Shown here: positions 50,729 to 63,214 of the stretch, piece after piece
Layout of the letters: each line of letters begins with the position of its first letter
Position numbering within the stretch: position 1 is the stretch's first letter
From: Alphaproteobacteria bacterium WMHbin7
GTDB taxonomy: Bacteria > Pseudomonadota > Alphaproteobacteria > Rhodospirillales > WMHbin7
Length of the DNA stretch: 64,000 nucleotides
Assembly (NCBI GenBank): GCA_002753155.1
Contig: PDZW01000005.1
Coordinates: forward strand, 1 to 64,000
Reading direction: 5' to 3'
The notes under the pieces: model-generated
Database searches by the model: none
What the model was told of the DNA's origin: nothing
What the model saw: the letters and a program-made list of their open reading frames with translations, nothing else
Position numbers and translations under genes: made by a program

Positions 50729-51061
50729 TCAGACGCAGCCCGTCGGCTTGGGCAATCCTGCGATCTTGCAGGCCTGCTTGGCGGGGCCGTAGGGGAACAA
50801 CTCGTAAAGATACTTGTTGCTGCCCTTTTCGGCGCCGAGGCGCTTGGTAATCGCCTTGGTCAGCACGCGGATGGCCGGAGCGATCTGATATTCGTTGTAA
50901 TATTCGCGCAGGAAGTTCACGACTTCCCAATGCTCGGGCGACATGTTGATCTGCTCGGCCTTGGCAATTTCGCCCGCCAGCTCTTCGTTCCATTCATTGA
51001 TATTGACGAGGTAGCCCTCTTCGTCCGCCTCAATCGTCTTGCCGTTTGCTGTGTAGGCCAT
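50729..51061 (-). CDS. dsrC: DsrC sulfur carrier protein
   Basis: ELFPYGPAKQACKIAGLPKPTGCV, with both conserved C-terminal cysteines. Confidence 0.97.
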   Translation of the reverse strand: MAYTANGKTIEADEEGYLVNINEWNEELAGEIAKAEQINMSPEHWEVVNFLREYYNEYQIAPAIRVLTKAITKRLGAEKGSNKYLYELFPYGPAKQACKIAGLPKPTGCV

Positions 51062-51100
51062 CTTACTTTCTCCTCTAAACCCGATTTCGATTGTTTGAAT

Positions 51101-51409
51101 TCAGCACCAGGCCTGAACCGCCGAAGCTTCGGCGGCCAGGTCGACAAATCCGGCGTAATCCACGACCTTGACGCCGGGAACCACCTTAGCGGCGTCCAGA
51201 CCGCGCGCCGCCAGATCAGGACCCAGCACATGCAGGCTGAAGGTCTTGGCGGCGGCAGCGACGGCGTCGGCCATCGACGTTCCCTGCATGGCGCCGATCA
51301 CGGCATCCTCGTACAGCAGGATCGCCGAACCGGGCGTGGCCAGCTTCAGACAGCTTTGCAGATTGGTCCGCTCGAAGGGCGATTTGGATACGGTGTGCAA
51401 CTGGCTCAT
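51101..51409 (-). CDS. dsrH: DsrH
   Basis: LHTVSKSPFERTNLQSCLKLATPGSAILLYEDAVIGAMQGT; operon position E-F-H-C. Confidence 0.93.
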   Translation of the reverse strand: MSQLHTVSKSPFERTNLQSCLKLATPGSAILLYEDAVIGAMQGTSMADAVAAAAKTFSLHVLGPDLAARGLDAAKVVPGVKVVDYAGFVDLAAEASAVQAWC

Positions 51410-51425
51410 CGTTTCAGTTCCTTGC

Positions 51426-51812
51426 TTAAGCCGACAGGACCACGTCCATCTGATCCATCAGCTTGGCCATTTCGGCACGGCTGACGACCTGGACATCGAC
51501 CAACAGGTCGTCTTCGGTCAGACCACGTTCATCGAGCGATTCCTGATCGACATAAAGCTTCTCGATGTCGTAGCCCTCAAGGGCGCGATAGGTCTTCGAG
51601 AAGTTCTTCATGCCGATGCCTTCCGTCGCCATGTTCTTCTTCAACTGAAGAACCCCGTCGTCGGTGAAGACAAGATGCACATCCTGGTCGAAGGCGGCCG
51701 AGATCAGCACCATTTCCAGCACTTCAAGCGCATAGACGGTGCCATAGGGCTGCTTGCGGTTCACATACATGAACTTCTTGACGACACCAGCTTCCATTTC
51801 TTCTTCCATCAT
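51426..51812 (-). CDS. dsrF: DsrF
   Basis: VVKKFMYVNRKQPYGTVYALEVLEMVLISAAFDQDVHLVFTDDGVLQLKK. Confidence 0.94.
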   Translation of the reverse strand: MMEEEMEAGVVKKFMYVNRKQPYGTVYALEVLEMVLISAAFDQDVHLVFTDDGVLQLKKNMATEGIGMKNFSKTYRALEGYDIEKLYVDQESLDERGLTEDDLLVDVQVVSRAEMAKLMDQMDVVLSA

Positions 51813-51820
51813 GTCCTCCC

Positions 51821-52180
51821 TTAATCGCCGAAGGTGACGAGACGGTCGGCCTGAATGCCCGCTTCGATCAACTGGCCCAGGCCAGAGATGCGAAAGCCTG
51901 CGGCCAGATTCTCGTCCTTGATGCCACGGCGAAGTGCGGCGGCGACACAGACCACTAAGTCCAGCTTATGCTCTTCGGCCAGCTTGCCCCAGTTGGCGAC
52001 CACATTGCGGTCGTCGGTGGGCGGCTCGGAGAGCTTGCTCGCGTTGTAGACGCCGTCGTAATAGAAGAACACCCGAAATATCTGGTGTCCCTTGGACAGC
52101 GCTGCCTTCACGAACTGATAGGCCGAGTCAGAGGCCTGGTGGTTAAACGGTCCCTCATTGACCAGAACGGCGAATTTCAT
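51821..52180 (-). CDS. dsrE: DsrE
   Basis: MKFAVLVNEGPFNHQASDSAYQFVKAALSKGHQIFRVFFYYDGVYNAS; active-site CVAAALRRG. Confidence 0.96.
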   Translation of the reverse strand: MKFAVLVNEGPFNHQASDSAYQFVKAALSKGHQIFRVFFYYDGVYNASKLSEPPTDDRNVVANWGKLAEEHKLDLVVCVAAALRRGIKDENLAAGFRISGLGQLIEAGIQADRLVTFGD

Positions 52181-52193
52181 ACCAGCCTCCGGC

Positions 52194-53264
52194 CTAGAAA
52201 TGCAGGTGCGCCGACGCGTTCAGGCTTGCACGCCCGCCACGCCAGGTTTCCAGATGATATTTGGTGAAGGGCAGGCCGGTCAGTTCGAAGAAGCGGGGCC
52301 AGCCCACGCGGTCGATCCACTCGCCCATGCGCTCCCAGGCTCTGGCGTCCTTTTGATAGGCGCGCAGGATGTTCTTGACGATCTCGGCGGCCTCGGGCCA
52401 GCGGGGCGCGTTGTTGGGAATGCCCGCCGCCACCAGCTTGTGGAAGGTGGGACGCGAGCGCGTGGAGGAATGCTTGCCACCGACCCAGATTGCCAGCTTC
52501 GAATGCTCGGGATCGTTGATCTGCATGGGCGGGCAAGGCGGGAAGCAAGCACCGCAGCAGACGCACTTCTTCTCGTCCACTTCCAGCGTCGGCTTGCCAT
52601 TGACCATGGCGGGGCGAATGGCCGCCACCGGGCAGCGCGCCACCACGGCCGGGCGTTCGCACTGCAGCGAAACCAGCTCGTGATTGATCTTGGGCGGCTT
52701 GGTGTGCTGAATGTTGATCGCGATGTCGCCCTGGCCGCCGCAGTTGATCTGGCAGCAGGATGTCGTGATCTTCACGCGGTTGGGCATGCGCTCGTTGATG
52801 AATTCTTCGTACAATTCATCCATCAGCGACTTGACGACACCCGAGGCGTCGGTGCCGGGAATGTCGCAATGCAGCCAGCCTTGCGTGTGCGAGATCATCG
52901 ATACCGAGTTGCCGGTGCCGCCGACGGGGAAACCGCCGTCGTTCAGCGCCTTGATCAAGGGATCGACCATGTCCTTCTTGGACACCATGAACTCGATGTT
53001 CGAGCGCACGGTAAAGCGAACATGTCCCTCAGCATACTTGTCGGCGATGTCGCACAGGGCGCGCACCGTAAAGACATCCATCTGGCGCTGGGTTCCGGCC
53101 TTGACGGTCCAGATCTCGTCGCCCGATTCGGCGACGTGATGCAGAACGCCCGGGCGCGGGCGATCATGCCAGGCCCAATGACCATAATTCTTGCGCATCA
53201 CGGGATGCATGAACGGCATCGGATCGGGCACGCCGCTTTCGGTTGGACGACGGGGTTCAGCCAT
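52194..53264 (-). CDS. dsrB: Reverse dissimilatory sulfite reductase beta subunit
   Basis: GYGHWAWH-type region, TTSCCQINCGGQGDIAIN siroheme/4Fe-4S site and CVCCGACFPPCP ferredoxin motif. Confidence 0.96.
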   Translation of the reverse strand: MAEPRRPTESGVPDPMPFMHPVMRKNYGHWAWHDRPRPGVLHHVAESGDEIWTVKAGTQRQMDVFTVRALCDIADKYAEGHVRFTVRSNIEFMVSKKDMVDPLIKALNDGGFPVGGTGNSVSMISHTQGWLHCDIPGTDASGVVKSLMDELYEEFINERMPNRVKITTSCCQINCGGQGDIAINIQHTKPPKINHELVSLQCERPAVVARCPVAAIRPAMVNGKPTLEVDEKKCVCCGACFPPCPPMQINDPEHSKLAIWVGGKHSSTRSRPTFHKLVAAGIPNNAPRWPEAAEIVKNILRAYQKDARAWERMGEWIDRVGWPRFFELTGLPFTKYHLETWRGGRASLNASAHLHF

Positions 53265-53302
53265 GAATTCCTCCGGTCTCTCTATCTATCTCGTTGAATT
53301 GC

Positions 53303-54550
53303 TTACTCGGCGGCCGACTTGGACCTGGCATTCCATTTCTTCACTTCCTCGTCCCAGCCATCCATGCGGACGTAGGAGTTAGAGCGAGGTGCCGCGATCA
53401 TGTTCAGATCGAGTTCCAGACCAACGCCTTCCAGGAAGTTGGAAAGTCCGATACGCTCGATCATCTCGCCGGTACGCTCGTGCTCAAGCGCGTTCTCGGC
53501 AAAGAAGTCCAGCATATTGCGGGCCAGTTCGACCAGGCCCTCGTAATCCTCGTCATTCTCGAGCTTCATGAAGGGCACGACCACGGTGCCCATCTGATCG
53601 CCGATCTTCAAGGTGCGCTTGCCACCCACCAGAATGGCAGCACCACGCTCTTTGCCCGGCTTCAACGCCTTGGTGCAGACATTGAGGCAATGCATGCAGC
53701 GCACACAGCTTTTGTTATCGACTTCCAGCGTGTCGTCGTCGTTCAGGGACAGCGCCTCGGTCGGGCACATGCGGATCACCTGATCGATGATCTCCTTGCG
53801 GCCACGCTCCTTCACGATCTGCTGGAAGGCCTTCTGGTCAACCTGCATATCATCTTTCCAGGTGCCGATGATCGCCATATCAGCGCGATGAATGGCATTG
53901 GCGCAGTCGTTGGCGCAACCGGCAAACTTCATCTTGAACTTGTAGGGCAGCGAGGGCCGGTGAATGTCGTCGACCATGGCATTCAGCGACATGCGCATGG
54001 CCTTGGCCTCGTCATAGCAGCTCTGTTCGCAGCGGGCCGCACCCACGCAGGAAACCGAGGTGCGCACGCCAGCGCCGGCGCCGCCGAGATCGAAGCCCAG
54101 CTCGTTCAACTCGTCGAAGGCGGGCTGGATGTTATCGGTCGTCGAGCCCTGGAACATGATATCGCCCGACTGGCCGTGAAAGGCGATCAGGCCTGAACCA
54201 TGGCGCTCCCAGATGTCGCACAACTTGCGCAGCAAATCGGTGGTGTAGTGCATCCCTGCGGGCGGCATGATGCGGATGGTGTGGAATTCCTTGGATTCGG
54301 GATATTTGTCGGCCACTTCCGAGAAGCGCGGAATGACACCGGCGCCATAACCGAAAACGCCGACCGTGCCGCCCTTCCAATAGCCCTTGCGGGTTTCATA
54401 GGAATGTTCGAGCTGGCCGAGCAGATCCTTCATCATGTCGGCATAGCCTTTGTCCGACTTGGCAAGGCGCTTCAGGCCCGTCACGAAGCTGGGCCAGGGC
54501 CCGGTTTCCAGTTGGTCCAGAAGGGGTGTCTTGGGCATCTGTTTGGCCAT
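53303..54550 (-). CDS. dsrA: Reverse dissimilatory sulfite reductase alpha subunit
   Basis: MAKQMPKTPLLDQLETGPWPSFVTGLKRLA; CVGAARCEQSCYDEAKA; KFKMKFAGCANDCANAIHRADM; CVRCMHCLNVC. Confidence 0.97.
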   Translation of the reverse strand: MAKQMPKTPLLDQLETGPWPSFVTGLKRLAKSDKGYADMMKDLLGQLEHSYETRKGYWKGGTVGVFGYGAGVIPRFSEVADKYPESKEFHTIRIMPPAGMHYTTDLLRKLCDIWERHGSGLIAFHGQSGDIMFQGSTTDNIQPAFDELNELGFDLGGAGAGVRTSVSCVGAARCEQSCYDEAKAMRMSLNAMVDDIHRPSLPYKFKMKFAGCANDCANAIHRADMAIIGTWKDDMQVDQKAFQQIVKERGRKEIIDQVIRMCPTEALSLNDDDTLEVDNKSCVRCMHCLNVCTKALKPGKERGAAILVGGKRTLKIGDQMGTVVVPFMKLENDEDYEGLVELARNMLDFFAENALEHERTGEMIERIGLSNFLEGVGLELDLNMIAAPRSNSYVRMDGWDEEVKKWNARSKSAAE

Positions 54551-54927
54551 TATTTCCTCCACCATCGTCGCGGCATGATTCCCAAGGGGGCCTCCTTGAG
54601 TGCCTTGATAAGTCTCTTGCTTCAGGATGCGGGAAAGGATTGGGTCCGCTCCCCTCGCCAACGCTCCTCCACTCTGCGCAAGTCCGAAGGCTTTAATCAA
54701 GCTTTTCGAATATGCGCAAACCCTCTTTCTTGGCCAGGGGGTCTCTAAGATCACTCGGCCTGGGGTTACATGAAAACATCATAATATAACGTTCCAACCG
54801 GAATCCAGCAGATTTTCCGTTTCCCACCAAGATTCTTTGATATTTCGTATATTATAGAAGCTCTAGATTATAACATATTGTCGAATCATCCTTTTCTTGC
54901 GCAGGATATGAAAAAGCAGGTGAAGGA

Positions 54928-56805: not shown

Positions 56806-56894
56806 GGCATCCAGGGTAGCGCGCTTCCTATCCCTCTGATACCCTTAAGACGAATCGGCGAAAAAGCCGAGCGGAAAGCGTGGAGGAAACAGGG

Positions 56895-57260
56895 ATGGGC
56901 CGTTCCGTACTGGTGGTCGATGACGAGTCGAACATCGTGCTTTCGTTGGAATTCCTGATGCGCCAGGCCGGGTTCGAGGTCCGCATCGCCCGTGATGGCG
57001 AACAGGCCCTTGAAGAAGTGGCCCGCCAGCCGCCCGATCTGATTCTGCTGGATGTCATGATGCCCAAGCGTGACGGCTATGATGTCTGCCAGACGGTGCG
57101 CGCCAACCCCCTTTGGAAGAATGTCCGCATCATCATGCTGACGGCCAAAGGCCGCGAGATCGAGCGCGAAAAGGGCCTGGCCATGGGTGCGGACGATTAC
57201 ATCACCAAGCCCTTCTCCACCCGCGAGGTTGTCGAGCGGGTCCGTCAATATCTCGGCTAG
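56895..57260 (+). CDS. Single-domain response regulator
   Basis: [76 protein letters not shown]. Confidence 0.92.
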
Positions 57261-57263
57261 ATC

Positions 57264-59318
57264 GTGGGTCACAGCGCCCGCATCGGCCTTGTCTTTGCGC
57301 TGCTGGGAGCGGCAGGGGCCGGAGCGATGCTGCTGATTCCCGCCACCCTGTCCTGGCTGATCCTTATTCCCGTACTTGGTCTGGCTTGGCTGCTGGTGAA
57401 TCGTCTGCTTTTGGCACCCGCAGCCCTTCTTGCCCGCGAAGTGGCAATTCTCGCCCAGACCAAGGGAACAGGCCGGGCGCCGATCTTCCCCGAACGCCAT
57501 CTGCTGGGCGACCTGCTGCCTGCGATTGAAAAATTGGCGCTGACGGTTTCGTCCAGCCAGGGCGAATTCAACGCCGCACTCGACAAGGCGACGAGACAGT
57601 CCGAAGAACAAAGGCGCTGGCTGGAAGTCATTCTGGTCGATCTGGCCGAAGGCGTTCTGGTCTGCAATCTCAATCACCAGCTTCTGCTCTACAATCAGAC
57701 CGCCACGCGATTGTTCGGAAAACCCGAAGCAATTGGCCTGGGCCGCCCGCTCTTCGCCCTGGTCTCGAAGGCGGCCATTCTGCACACGCTGGATCTTCTG
57801 GACTATCGCCGCCGCTCGGGCGTGCCCCAGGATGGCGACACATTGCCCTTCGTCTGCGCCACCGCCGATGCCAAGCGCATGCTGGAAGGACGCATGGGGC
57901 TTATTCTCGATCCTGCGGGCAAGACATCGGCCTATGTGCTGACTTTCACCGATATGAGCGAGCGCGTGGCCGAACTGGAACGCGCCGACACGGTGCGTCA
58001 CGCCCTGACCCGCGATCTGCGCCAACCCATGGCCAATCTGCGCGCCGCCTCGGAAACATTGAACGCCTATCCTTTGATGGAAGCAGGGGTGCGCCAGTCC
58101 TTCGAGAAAGTGATCCTGGAAGAAAGCACGCGCCTCAGCAATCGCCTGGACGAATTGGCCTTGGCCTATCGCGGCCATGGGCTGGGCCGCTGGCCGATGG
58201 GAGAGTTGCATGCCGCCGATCTGATCGACTGCCTTGATCGCAGGCTGGTCAAAGAGAATGGGCCGCGGGTCACGCTGATCGGCATGCCTTTGTGGCTGCA
58301 GGCCGATCATCACCTTCTCATGCGCACATTGCTTCAGCTGGTGCGCAAGATCGCGCAGCGTTTCGCTGTAGAAGAAATCGATGCCGAAACCAAGCTGGGC
58401 GACAAACGTGTCTATCTCGATCTGATCTGGAAGGGGGCCGCCCTTTCCAACCAGGAGATCGAAGCCTGGATCGCTGAACCGCTGGAGGGCGGCGATGGCC
58501 CAGCCACCATCGCCGAAGCGCTTGAACGCCACGGCGCCGAAATCTGGAGCCAACCTTCTGGCGGCGATTACGCTCTGCTGCGCCTGCCCCTGCTGACCCC
58601 GATGAATGCCCGGATTCTGGTCAAGCAAGAAGAAGAGCGCCCGCCTGCACGCCCGGAATTCTACGATTTCGGCCTATTGGCCCAGCATGCCGATGTGGGC
58701 AGTCTGGCCGAGCGGCCCTTAAGCCAACTGACCTTCGTCGTCTTTGATACCGAGACCACCGGCTTGAAGCCCTCGCAGGGCGACGAGATCATCTCCATCG
58801 GTGCGGTGCGCGTCGTCAACGGGCGCCTTTTGAGCGGCGAGACCTTCGAGCGTCTGGTCAATCCCGGAATGAAAATTCCCGAGGCCAGCATCCGTTTCCA
58901 TCACATTACCGACAGCATGGTGGCCGACAAGCCGCCGATTGCCATCGTTCTTCCCCAATTCAAGGGATTCGCGGGCGATGCCGTGCTGGCCGCCCACAAT
59001 GCCGCCTTTGATCTCAAGTTCCTGCATTTAAAGGAAGCCAGCACCGGCATCCGCTTTACCAATCCGGTGGTGGATACGCTGTTGCTGTCGCGTCTGGCCG
59101 ACGAGCATCTGGAAGATCATTCGCTGGATGGCGTTGCCCTGCGGTTCAATATCGACATTCCCGACCGGCACACCGCCTTGGGCGACGCGTTGGCCACCGC
59201 CGTCGTTCTGGTCAGGCTGATTCAGATTCTGGAAACACAGGGGATCACCACCCTGGGTCAGGTGATGAGATTAACCAACATGGCAGCGCAGATGCGCGCC
59301 ACCGGCCAGAATTTTTAG
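57264..59318 (+). CDS. Membrane PAS/degenerate histidine kinase fused to a DEDDh 3'-5' exonuclease
   Basis: Two TM segments, PAS, TRDLRQPMANLRAASETL (H-box without His), then FVVFDTETTGLKPSQGDEIISIGAV / HNAAFDLKFLHL / HTALGDALAT. Confidence 0.85.
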   Translation: MGHSARIGLVFALLGAAGAGAMLLIPATLSWLILIPVLGLAWLLVNRLLLAPAALLAREVAILAQTKGTGRAPIFPERHLLGDLLPAIEKLALTVSSSQGEFNAALDKATRQSEEQRRWLEVILVDLAEGVLVCNLNHQLLLYNQTATRLFGKPEAIGLGRPLFALVSKAAILHTLDLLDYRRRSGVPQDGDTLPFVCATADAKRMLEGRMGLILDPAGKTSAYVLTFTDMSERVAELERADTVRHALTRDLRQPMANLRAASETLNAYPLMEAGVRQSFEKVILEESTRLSNRLDELALAYRGHGLGRWPMGELHAADLIDCLDRRLVKENGPRVTLIGMPLWLQADHHLLMRTLLQLVRKIAQRFAVEEIDAETKLGDKRVYLDLIWKGAALSNQEIEAWIAEPLEGGDGPATIAEALERHGAEIWSQPSGGDYALLRLPLLTPMNARILVKQEEERPPARPEFYDFGLLAQHADVGSLAERPLSQLTFVVFDTETTGLKPSQGDEIISIGAVRVVNGRLLSGETFERLVNPGMKIPEASIRFHHITDSMVADKPPIAIVLPQFKGFAGDAVLAAHNAAFDLKFLHLKEASTGIRFTNPVVDTLLLSRLADEHLEDHSLDGVALRFNIDIPDRHTALGDALATAVVLVRLIQILETQGITTLGQVMRLTNMAAQMRATGQNF

Positions 59319-59320
59319 CC

Positions 59321-59569
59321 ATGACAGGTCGTCGCAAAAACACCCCCCATGTCCGTTTTGCCAGCCCCGGCGGGCGCGAGGCCAAGCTGGCAGGGCTGTT
59401 TCTGCTGGGGCTTTTGCTGTTCCTGCCCCCGATCCTGACCCTTTTCAGCCGCCCGATTCTGGTGTTTGGCATTCCCCTGTTCTATCTCTATCTGTTCCTG
59501 GCCTGGGCGGCTCTGATTTTTCTTCTGGCCCGCGCGCTTAGGCGCGGTCCGGACCCCGGTTCGGAGTAA
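59321..59569 (+). CDS. Small two-TM protein preceding the symporter
   Basis: AKLAGLFLLGLLLFLPPILTLF and IPLFYLYLFLAWAALIFLLARAL; sits directly before the SLC5-like sensor, as small subunits commonly do. Confidence 0.7.
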   Translation: MTGRRKNTPHVRFASPGGREAKLAGLFLLGLLLFLPPILTLFSRPILVFGIPLFYLYLFLAWAALIFLLARALRRGPDPGSE

Positions 59570-59572
59570 GCC

Positions 59573-62263
59573 ATGCTGACGCCCTGGCAGGTCATCCCCG
59601 CAGCCCTGGCCTATCTTTTCCTGCTTTTTGCGCTGGCCTGGTGGGGCGACCGCAGGGCCGATCAACAGCGCAGCCTGATTTCCTGGCCCATCGTCTATGC
59701 CCTGTCGATCGCGGTTTATTGCACCTCATGGACCTTTTACGGAAGCGTCGGGCGGGCCGCCGCCTCGGGTGTCGGCTTCCTGCCGATCTATCTTGGCCCC
59801 ACCCTGATGGCCTGCCTGTGGTGGCTATGGCTGCGCAAGATGGCGCGTATTTCCAAGGCGCACCGCATCACCTCGATTGCCGACTTTCTGTCAGCGCGTT
59901 ATGGCAAAAGCACACTTCTGGGCGGCCTGGTTACCGTCATCGCGGTCATCGGCATCATGCCCTACATCTCGCTGCAACTGAAAGCGGTCTCGGCCACCTT
60001 CCAGGCCCTGGTCGCTGTGACGCCTGAACATAACGCCGCCCCTGCCATGTTCGAAGACACGGCGTTCTACGTCGCCCTGTTGCTGACCGCCTTCGCCATT
60101 CTGTTCGGCACCCGCCATATCGACGCATCGGAGCGCCACGAGGGCATGGTTGCCGCCATCGCCTTCGAAAGCCTGATCAAGCTGATCGCCTTCATGGCCG
60201 TCGGCCTGTTCGTCGTCTTCGGCCTGTTCTCCAGCCCCGCCGAACTGTTCGAACTGGCCGCCAGCGACGCATCGCTGGCCAAGCTGTTCACCCTGCCCGA
60301 TGCCAAGTCGGCTGGCGATTTCGTGGCGCTGACCTTTCTTTCCGGCCTTGTTATCATTTGCCTGCCCCGCCAGTTCCAGGTGGCGGTGGTCGAAAATGTT
60401 TCAGAAGACCATATTCGCCACGCCGCCTGGATGTTTCCGCTTTACCTGTTCCTGATCAATCTCTTCGTGCTGCCCATTGCACTGGCCGGGCGCATGGCCT
60501 TCGGCACCGACGTCAATCCCGACCTCTATGTTCTGTCCCTGCCCCTGGGGGCTGGGCAGACCGCCCTGGCGCTTTTCGCCTTCATCGGCGGATTGTCGGC
60601 GGCCACCGGCATGATCATCGTTGAAACGGTGGCCTTGGCCACCATGGTCTGCAACGATCTGGTCATGCCCGCCCTCTTGCGCCTCGCCCCCTCGCATCTG
60701 AAGGCCAGAGCCGATCTTTCCGTGTTGCTGCTGCGCATTCGCCGTTGGGCCATCGTCGGTGTGGTGGGGCTGGGCTATCTTTACGCCCATTTCATCGGCC
60801 AATCCTATGCCTTGGTGACCATAGGCCTGGTCAGCTTTGCCGCCGCCGCCCAATTCGCCCCGGCCCTGCTGGGCGGCATTCTGTGGAAGGGCGGAACAAG
60901 CTCGGGCGCCCTGGCCGGTCTTTCTGCGGGGGCCGTGATCTGGTTCTATACGCTGCTTTTGCCTTCCTTCGCCCGCTCGGGCTGGATCGCTGGCGCCTTC
61001 ATCGATTTAGGCCCCTTTGGCTTCGAACTTTTAAAGCCTTATGCGCTGTTCGGCCTTTCGGGCCTTGATCCCATCACGCATTCGCTGATCTGGAGCATGA
61101 TGGCCAATCTTGGCCTTTACATCGCCGTGTCGCTTTTATCCAGCCAGGGCGCCATCGAGCGCATTCAAGCCACCTTGTTCGTCGATGCCTTAAAGCCAGC
61201 CGGCGAAACCGGAGGTGCTCGTTTCTGGCGCGGCACCGCCCAGGTGGCCGACCTGTTGGCCCTGGCCGCTCGCTTCGTCGGCACCGAGAATGCCGAACGC
61301 GCCTTTGCCCAACATGCCAGTTCGCGCGGGCTTGAACTGGGCGAGGTCGAGGTGGCGGATGCCGATTTCGTGGCCTTTGCCGAGCGACTGCTTTCCGGCG
61401 CCATCGGCGGCGCCTCGGCCCGCGTCATGGTCGCCAGCGTAGCCAAGGGCGAGATCATGGGCCTGGCCGAGGTGATGGAGATTTTGGACGAAGCTTCGCA
61501 GGTGATCGCCTACAGCCAGAAGCTTGAGGCCACCTCGGCGGAGTTGAAAGCCGCCAACGAGCGGCTTAAGGAATTGGACAGCCTGAAGGATGATTTCGTT
61601 TCAACGGTCACCCACGAATTGCGCACCCCGCTCACCTCGATCCGCTCGTTTTCGGAAATTCTGCGCGACAATCCCGAGCTTGATCCGGCCCAGCGCCAGG
61701 AATTCCTGCGCATCGTGGTCGAGGAAAGCGAGCGCCTGACCCGCCTGATCAATCAGGTGCTGGATCTGGCCAAGATCGAGGCGGGTTCCCTGGGCTGGGA
61801 TATCCACCCCTTGATAGCCCAGGAAGCCCTTGAATCAGCCCTGGCCGCGACCAGACGCTTAGCCCAGGACCGAGGCGTGATCATCGAGGAGAACCTGCCC
61901 GCCAGCCCCCTGATGGTGATGGCGGATCGTGATCGGCTGATTCAGGTGCTGATCAATCTGCTTTCGAATGCCGTGAAGTTCGCGCCGGAAAACAGTGGGC
62001 GCATTCGGGCGCAAGTGGCGGCCAGCGACGGCGGCATTCGCTTTACCATCGCCGACAATGGGCCCGGCGTGCCCGCAGCCCATCACGAAACCATCTTCGA
62101 CAAATTCCGCCAGGTGGGCGACACCCTGACCGCCAAGCCCTCGGGCACCGGGCTTGGCTTGGCTATTTCTCGGGGCATCGTCGAGCATCTTGAGGGGCGC
62201 ATCTGGATCGACAGCCAACCAGGCCAGGGGGCTACCTTCCATGTGCAATTGCCGGGGGCTTAG
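59573..62263 (+). CDS. CrbS-like sodium/solute symporter-histidine kinase fusion
   Basis: 13-TM-like SSS domain (YCTSWTFYGSVGRAAASGVGFLPIYLGPTL) followed by DDFVSTVTHELRTPLTSIRSFSEIL and HATPase NLLSNAVKFAPENSG. Confidence 0.92.
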   Translation: MLTPWQVIPAALAYLFLLFALAWWGDRRADQQRSLISWPIVYALSIAVYCTSWTFYGSVGRAAASGVGFLPIYLGPTLMACLWWLWLRKMARISKAHRITSIADFLSARYGKSTLLGGLVTVIAVIGIMPYISLQLKAVSATFQALVAVTPEHNAAPAMFEDTAFYVALLLTAFAILFGTRHIDASERHEGMVAAIAFESLIKLIAFMAVGLFVVFGLFSSPAELFELAASDASLAKLFTLPDAKSAGDFVALTFLSGLVIICLPRQFQVAVVENVSEDHIRHAAWMFPLYLFLINLFVLPIALAGRMAFGTDVNPDLYVLSLPLGAGQTALALFAFIGGLSAATGMIIVETVALATMVCNDLVMPALLRLAPSHLKARADLSVLLLRIRRWAIVGVVGLGYLYAHFIGQSYALVTIGLVSFAAAAQFAPALLGGILWKGGTSSGALAGLSAGAVIWFYTLLLPSFARSGWIAGAFIDLGPFGFELLKPYALFGLSGLDPITHSLIWSMMANLGLYIAVSLLSSQGAIERIQATLFVDALKPAGETGGARFWRGTAQVADLLALAARFVGTENAERAFAQHASSRGLELGEVEVADADFVAFAERLLSGAIGGASARVMVASVAKGEIMGLAEVMEILDEASQVIAYSQKLEATSAELKAANERLKELDSLKDDFVSTVTHELRTPLTSIRSFSEILRDNPELDPAQRQEFLRIVVEESERLTRLINQVLDLAKIEAGSLGWDIHPLIAQEALESALAATRRLAQDRGVIIEENLPASPLMVMADRDRLIQVLINLLSNAVKFAPENSGRIRAQVAASDGGIRFTIADNGPGVPAAHHETIFDKFRQVGDTLTAKPSGTGLGLAISRGIVEHLEGRIWIDSQPGQGATFHVQLPGA

Positions 62264-62857: not shown

Positions 62858-63175
62858 CTACGCCGCCTCGATACGCCTTGTGATCCATTGGCTGATGCTG
62901 ACGCCTTCAGCGGCAGCTTGCAAAGCGGCCTTTCGATGCAGCTCGGGATCGGTGCGCAACAAAATTTTGCCGTTGAAGGGTTTGTCGGGCGCCTTGCCGC
63001 GCTCGGAACAAAAGGCCAGATAATCATCGATGCTGTTCTGGAAAGCGCGCTTCAAGTCGCGGGCGTTGGTGCCCTCGAAATGGATGACGTCCCTCAAGCC
63101 CGCCACCGTGCCCGAGAAAATGCCCGCCTCGGCATCGAATTCAATCGGCCCGGCCAGATAGCCTTTGTATTCCAT
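62858..63175 (-). CDS. HicB-family protein (RHH C-terminus), no HicA partner visible
   Basis: YKGYLAGPIEFDAEAGIFSGTVAGLRDVIHFEGTNARDLKRAFQNSIDDYLAFCSERG..GKILLRTDPELHRKAALQAAAEGVSISQWI. Confidence 0.85.
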   Translation of the reverse strand: MEYKGYLAGPIEFDAEAGIFSGTVAGLRDVIHFEGTNARDLKRAFQNSIDDYLAFCSERGKAPDKPFNGKILLRTDPELHRKAALQAAAEGVSISQWITRRIEAA

Positions 63176-63214
63176 CATGGTCTAACTCCTGCCGTATCCA
63201 GAAACGACAGCTTC

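Follow-up and report, generated by a model that had tools for sequence, protein, structure and literature searches.

The locus described here raises the question of what a bacterial membrane protein may do when a histidine-kinase-like half that appears to have lost its chemistry is joined to an exonuclease that has kept all of its own catalytic motifs. The window analysed, i.e. the whole stretch of 64,000 nucleotides from Alphaproteobacteria bacterium WMHbin7 (contig PDZW01000005.1), contains the open reading frame exactly as given in a preliminary description, with two transmembrane segments, a PAS domain, a kinase-like region and a DEDDh domain (Table 1), and the view of it as a membrane-anchored pseudokinase with an intact DEDDh exonuclease is strongly supported by residues, profile, structural model and relatives. 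Because the successive gaps amount to only 3, 2 and 3 nucleotides, the genes of the response regulator (with an alternative GTG start at 56880), the pseudokinase-exonuclease, a small two-transmembrane protein and an SLC5-type sensor kinase, all on the forward strand, form one tight operon. The sensor kinase also matches the SSF symporter family above the cut-off and has its HisKA and HATPase_c domains intact. The small protein, absent from the preliminary list, gave no Pfam match in the Pfam search, and at 33 of the 37 loci where the genes follow in this order a small hydrophobic frame occupies the equivalent place. By its size, its topology and its location the protein of the window resembles CbrX, a peptide of two helices whose gene precedes that of the SLC5 kinase CbrA and which packs on the CbrA transporter domain (PMC13022988); CbrX is therefore a plausible model for it. 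Elsewhere in the window, on the reverse strand, there are a dissimilatory-sulfite-reductase-like cluster (50729-54754) with two NIR_SIR subunits and small DsrE/F/H- and DsrC-like frames, suggesting that the host is a sulfur-metabolising alphaproteobacterium, and a HicB-family protein (62858-63178; Pfam 9.7e-19) near gyrB.

Table 1 Features of the operon and of the pseudokinase-exonuclease in the window
Feature	Position	Strand	Evidence
Single-domain response regulator (receiver only, without output domain)	56895..57260	+	Pfam Response_reg 8.9e-31
Membrane pseudo-histidine-kinase/DEDDh exonuclease, 684 aa, GTG start	57264..59318	+	Open reading frame, Pfam, relatives, model
Two transmembrane helices, residues about 7-25 and 29-47	57282..57404	+	Hydrophobic stretches; model helices 3-24 and 30-65
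Signalling helix and PAS domain, residues 84-232	57513..57959	+	Pfam PAS 2e-4; profile; secondary structure
Pseudo-DHp, residues 233-304	57960..58175	+	H-box column in 104 relatives; VicK alignment
Pseudo-catalytic (CA) domain, residues 309-446	58188..58601	+	GHKL-type fold; VicK alignment
RPEFYDF linker motif, ahead of the exonuclease	58650..58670	+	Relatives
DEDDh 3'-5' exonuclease domain, residues 490-655	58731..59228	+	Pfam RNase_T 2.1e-33; PolC exonuclease 2p1j 3e-28
Small 82-aa protein with two transmembrane segments, encoded between the exonuclease and the sensor kinase	59321..59569	+	Sequence; conserved gene order
SLC5-type (CrbS-like) sensor histidine kinase, without receiver domain	59573..62263	+	Pfam HisKA 1e-20, HATPase_c 1e-29

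Concerning the kinase-like half, Pfam offers little: the PAS match (residues 121-230) lies just below the curated cut-off, HisKA is sub-threshold (0.0036) and no HATPase_c match reaches 0.1. The fold becomes visible with a profile built from 67 relatives over residues 85-448, which finds VicK (4i5s) among the solved structures with an E-value of 1.6e-20 over 345 residues, as well as ThkA and WalK, and which matches the PAS domains of WalK and DosP at 1e-8 to 2e-7, the modelled secondary structure of this region being PAS-like. The AlphaFold2 model of the same residues, based on the 67 sequences and superseding a weak earlier one (11 sequences, pLDDT 60), has a mean pLDDT of 88.6, and Foldseek places it next to WalK (5.7e-19), VicK, the ThkA-TrrA complex, HK853-RR468 complexes and DivL (4q20). 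As judged from profile and predicted structure, the region is thus confirmed as a true but degenerate histidine-kinase core with the PAS-DHp-CA fold.

The replacement of the H-box histidine and the degeneration of the N-box, both claimed in the preliminary description, hold not just for this protein—in which Arg250 (codon 58011-58013), within TRDLRQPMANL (residues 249-259), occupies the phosphorylated position—but throughout its relatives. Across 104 full-length relatives this column holds Glu in 54, Asp in 22, Pro in eight, Arg in six and other residues in 14 sequences, i.e. it is acidic in 76, and a histidine, which in close orthologues would have spoken for a functional HisKA, occurs in none. 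The N-box columns are scattered over the same sequences, with the asparagine lost, the aspartate of the G1 box is replaced by tryptophan in 102 of the 104 (Trp389 here) and the G2 box is missing in the alignment to VicK. The profile alignment sets the columns in question opposite the SHELRTPL box and the G1 box of VicK and, since the CrbS-like kinases from these loci show the histidine in 57 of 58 cases, the method detects it where it is present. A conventional kinase can accordingly, as far as the residues tell, be ruled out for this protein and across the whole family, the pseudokinase state being by the same reasoning an ancient one and not a product of local decay; the conserved tryptophan and the acidic residue argue for a retained function. 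A pseudogene or recent decay was considered and excluded by the conserved architecture, the near-invariant Trp389 and low dN/dS, the closest pair (L021/L023) exhibiting omega of 0.017-0.065 across the kinase-like part and 0.017-0.104 over all regions, which means purifying selection. It should be noted that in wider pairs of close relatives the DHp evolves faster (omega about 0.38-0.45) than the PAS and exonuclease (0.07-0.16), and that within the N-terminal half close relatives conserve the PAS best (0.07-0.13); the faster DHp counts against docking of the response regulator there.

In the C-terminal half, where the RNase_T match covers residues 492-648, the motifs DTETTG (495-500), HNAAFD (578-583) and HTALGD (636-641) are intact, as the preliminary description had it, and the catalytic set D495, E497, D583, H636 and D641 is complete in every readable relative (142/142 or 139/139, depending on the residue). 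By residue set and profile the domain qualifies as a DEDDh 3'-5' exonuclease.

The architecture search proposed earlier retrieved an equivalent layout in ten relatives of the order, at 41-77% identity, and far more widely, a conservation beyond chance. According to the scan of GTDB contigs, the family extends over Alpha-, Beta- and Gammaproteobacteria and also occurs in Desulfuromonadales, next to a few further matches; among 398 sampled Pseudomonadota genomes, 58 contain a match at E ≤ 1e-40, and for 31 matches, the window's own included, the alignment begins within the first 50 profile positions. The members form a series of architectures, from two transmembrane segments plus exonuclease, through a form with the PAS inserted (about 470 residues, found in many Rhodobacteraceae) and one with PAS and CA lacking the DHp, to the full form, a full-length relative being present also in Rhodobacter capsulatus (L064). 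The RPEFYDF linker is retained even by relatives without the kinase-like part. One member (L074:7668-9827) is split in the DHp/CA region by a frameshift or an assembly error and was scored as lacking the DHp. In most relatives of the Rhodospirillales type (L031, L033, L029, L028 and others) an ABC-F ATPase gene adjoins the exonuclease gene on the opposite strand. The pseudo-histidine-kinase/exonuclease family is widespread, a response regulator travels with it, and the observation is larger than the preliminary description reported. Its parts are of known kinds, and their combination appears to be undescribed in the open literature searched: the open-access search, with subscription papers outside its scope, returned no histidine-kinase/exonuclease fusion and nothing relevant on DUF294 with an exonuclease or on regulators with a nuclease output.

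The link to the neighbouring regulator, suggested at the outset, has gained real support from the co-occurrence of its gene with the pseudo-DHp. A same-strand receiver gene immediately upstream was scored at 142 loci with enough upstream sequence and was found at 88 of the 104 loci with a DHp vs one of the 38 without it (Fisher 2.7e-20), the sole exception (L194) having an apparent DHp remnant below the threshold. The regulator is absent from the forms with a PAS but no DHp, and from most of those with a CA but no DHp. Within a single operon type, SSF-DUF294-(regulator)-exonuclease with no SLC5 kinase nearby, the counts are 20/23 with the DHp vs 1/23 without it (p 1.2e-8), and loci of this kind weaken the candidate reading of the regulator as a partner of the kinase alone. 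On the exonuclease-domain tree, among seven well-supported independent pairs differing in the DHp, the regulator changes alike in five to six and oppositely in none (median p 0.03); that this tree-corrected test comprises only seven contrasts is to be set against the docking model, and so are the 16 of the 104 DHp-containing loci without an adjacent regulator, mostly from Desulfuromonadales and some from Betaproteobacteria. Examples with a DHp and with neither a regulator nor an SLC5 kinase nearby are L070, L085, L093, L094 and L106 from Desulfuromonadales, as well as L051, L058 and L088. The linked regulators themselves look functional in their residues, Asp15 of the acidic pocket, the phosphorylated Asp58, Thr88 and Lys110 being kept in 82-87 of 87. 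No covariation tying regulator to DHp emerged from mutual information with average-product correction over 87 pairs (effective number 51, hence of weak power), the top pairs falling in the PAS and CA and being depleted in the DHp. Of all the evidence, the co-occurrence—a matter of genetic linkage, not of binding—speaks most strongly for an action of the regulator through the pseudo-DHp.

As to the wider neighbourhood, the CrbS-like kinase adjoins in the window, CrbS and DUF294 genes lie near many relatives, and at most loci, those of the short forms without the kinase-like part included, a CBS-DUF294 nucleotidyltransferase is encoded nearby, in many cases together with an SSF symporter. The genome of the window itself has two DUF294 proteins elsewhere, one of them beside an SSF symporter. 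In two alphaproteobacterial cases, confirmed by Pfam, the DEDDh exonuclease and CBS-DUF294-DUF294_C are found even in one polypeptide (L206:5037-7148 and L207:5506-7638, both on the reverse strand), and further open, full-length fusions of this kind are those of L209-L212 and L214, the frames of all these cases comprising about 700-750 residues. The MxtR/ErdR system (= CrbS/CrbR) controls acetate use; its targets in P. putida include the operon of pp_0354 (CBS domain) and pp_0353 (RNase_T), strains deleted for pp_0353, mxtR or erdR grow more slowly on pyruvate, and the authors of that study speculate that central-metabolism mRNA is degraded by the pp_0353 nuclease (PMC9927547).

Among the described systems, DivL of Caulobacter, whose DHp/CA devoid of the histidine serves as a sensor of the phosphorylated regulator DivK~P (PMC4211667), shares with the present protein the PAS-DHp-CA core, the lack of the phosphorylation-site histidine and, likely, a single-domain regulator as partner: a non-histidine DHp with the histidine-kinase fold is present here, and a dedicated phosphorylatable single-domain regulator is indicated by genetic linkage. 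DivL, however, has Tyr at the site occupied mostly by Glu or Asp in the present family, acts on another kinase (CckA) and has no nuclease. PP_0353 is likewise a DEDDh exonuclease tied to an SLC5-type kinase and a CBS-domain partner (PP_0354), and a genomic link to such a kinase or to the CBS-DUF294/symporter module is found here, too; its likeness to the long form concerns the exonuclease and the context. In PMC9927547 the control described is transcriptional and exerted by ErdR, and a kinase-like region is not mentioned. The SLC5-fused sensor kinase is common to the window and to the SLC5-STAC systems CrbS/CrbR, CbrA/CbrB and RpuS/RpuR (PMC5715377, PMC13022988, PMC9100948), CbrA being, moreover, preceded by its small protein as here, whereas transcription is the target of CrbR and CbrB (PMC5715377, PMC13022988) and the regulator of the window is receiver-only, beside the pseudokinase-exonuclease. 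With the PAS histidine kinases of the VicK/WalK type the protein has domain order and fold in common, although it has lost all ATP-binding and phosphoacceptor residues and gained the exonuclease. The latter shares its catalytic motifs with PolC, DnaQ and DinG, but differs from them in the membrane-tethered, regulated architecture, the RPEFYDF linker and the linkage to DUF294 instead of a polymerase or helicase.

On the evidence as a whole, we consider it moderately probable that the protein acts as effector in a two-component system, in which a DivL-like pseudokinase reads the phosphorylation of the response regulator and, as part of acetate/pyruvate physiology, gates an exonuclease tethered to the membrane. 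The SLC5-type kinase, which by analogy with its relatives may sense an organic acid, would phosphorylate the single-domain regulator encoded upstream; the regulator, in its phosphorylated or unphosphorylated state, would dock on the pseudo-DHp as DivK~P does on DivL; and the docking would alter the conformation of PAS, DHp and CA so that the exonuclease is switched, in one direction or the other, or positioned at the membrane. The exonuclease would share one pathway of acetate/pyruvate metabolism with the CBS-DUF294 nucleotidyltransferase, its substrate there presumably being RNA, as a first guess, or a nucleotidyl mark.

The main rival, in our estimation unlikely, sees in the kinase-like region a mere membrane scaffold for dimerisation and ligand sensing, whose PAS (and perhaps CA pocket) would gate the nuclease upon binding a small molecule, with the regulator as a bystander serving the SLC5 kinase only. 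It draws on the strong conservation of the PAS, the occurrence of fused PAS-only forms without any regulator, the lack of regulator-DHp covariation in a data set of weak power and the 16 DHp-containing proteins without an adjacent regulator. It is nevertheless disfavoured because a neighbour serving the kinase alone would not track the loss of the DHp, and the regulator does follow the DHp both where no SLC5 kinase is nearby and in the independent contrasts. Distinctly improbable appears the alternative of a decoy or sink that titrates the regulator from the SLC5 kinase, or heterodimerises with the latter, to tune the system, the exonuclease being a separate second activity. Pseudo-DHp and intact kinase do share one operon at many loci, and the acidic residue at the histidine position could mimic a charged state; the exonuclease, however, is fused, its catalytic residues have not been lost at any readable position in 142 relatives, and the regulator accompanies the pseudokinase without a nearby SLC5 kinase at many loci.

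The remaining two alternatives concern the nuclease. One is the hydrolysis of a nucleotide second messenger, as offered in the preliminary description, or of linear dinucleotides, in the manner of oligoribonuclease. The DEDDh fold is indeed common to these exonucleases and oligoribonuclease, and a nucleotide product could come from the neighbouring nucleotidyltransferase; yet the best matches are PolC, DnaQ, DinG and UvrC-associated exonucleases, and the matches listed include neither a model nor a structure of Orn, so that this reading is left without support and we regard it as highly improbable. Still less credible is an ordinary DNA-repair or proofreading exonuclease with a passive membrane anchor as its N-terminal half. 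The nearest solved domains are replicative exonucleases and short relatives with two transmembrane segments plus exonuclease occur, but the genomic linkage to DUF294 and to the sensing and transport of organic acids, the recurrent fusion to CBS-DUF294 and the pyruvate phenotype of pp_0353 (PMC9927547) are at odds with it. A role in anti-phage defence was rejected, the PADLOC matches being confined to the generic DEDDh domain and to receiver-domain parts of other models.

Returning to the regulator-reading pseudokinase, since the regulator gene is lost together with the DHp, docking is directly testable in laboratory strains, e.g. in Rhodobacter capsulatus. A more speculative and rather doubtful extension would make the exonuclease and its genomic partner an eraser/writer pair, the DUF294 transferase responding to adenylates sensed by CBS with the addition of nucleotides to a protein or an RNA end, and the exonuclease taking them off again under direct two-component control exerted through the pseudokinase. 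If true, it would represent a post-transcriptional or post-translational nucleotidyl switch over the use of acetate and pyruvate. The usual outputs of response regulators are DNA binding, second-messenger enzymes and protein partners, and we know of no two-component system with a nucleotidyl switch as its output. A two-component pathway gating a membrane-bound exonuclease directly would tie the sensing of carbon sources to the turnover of nucleic acids or nucleotidyl marks, and the exonuclease of the CrbS/MxtR acetate-pyruvate regulon, unexplained as it is and with a mutant phenotype in P. putida, would acquire a role.
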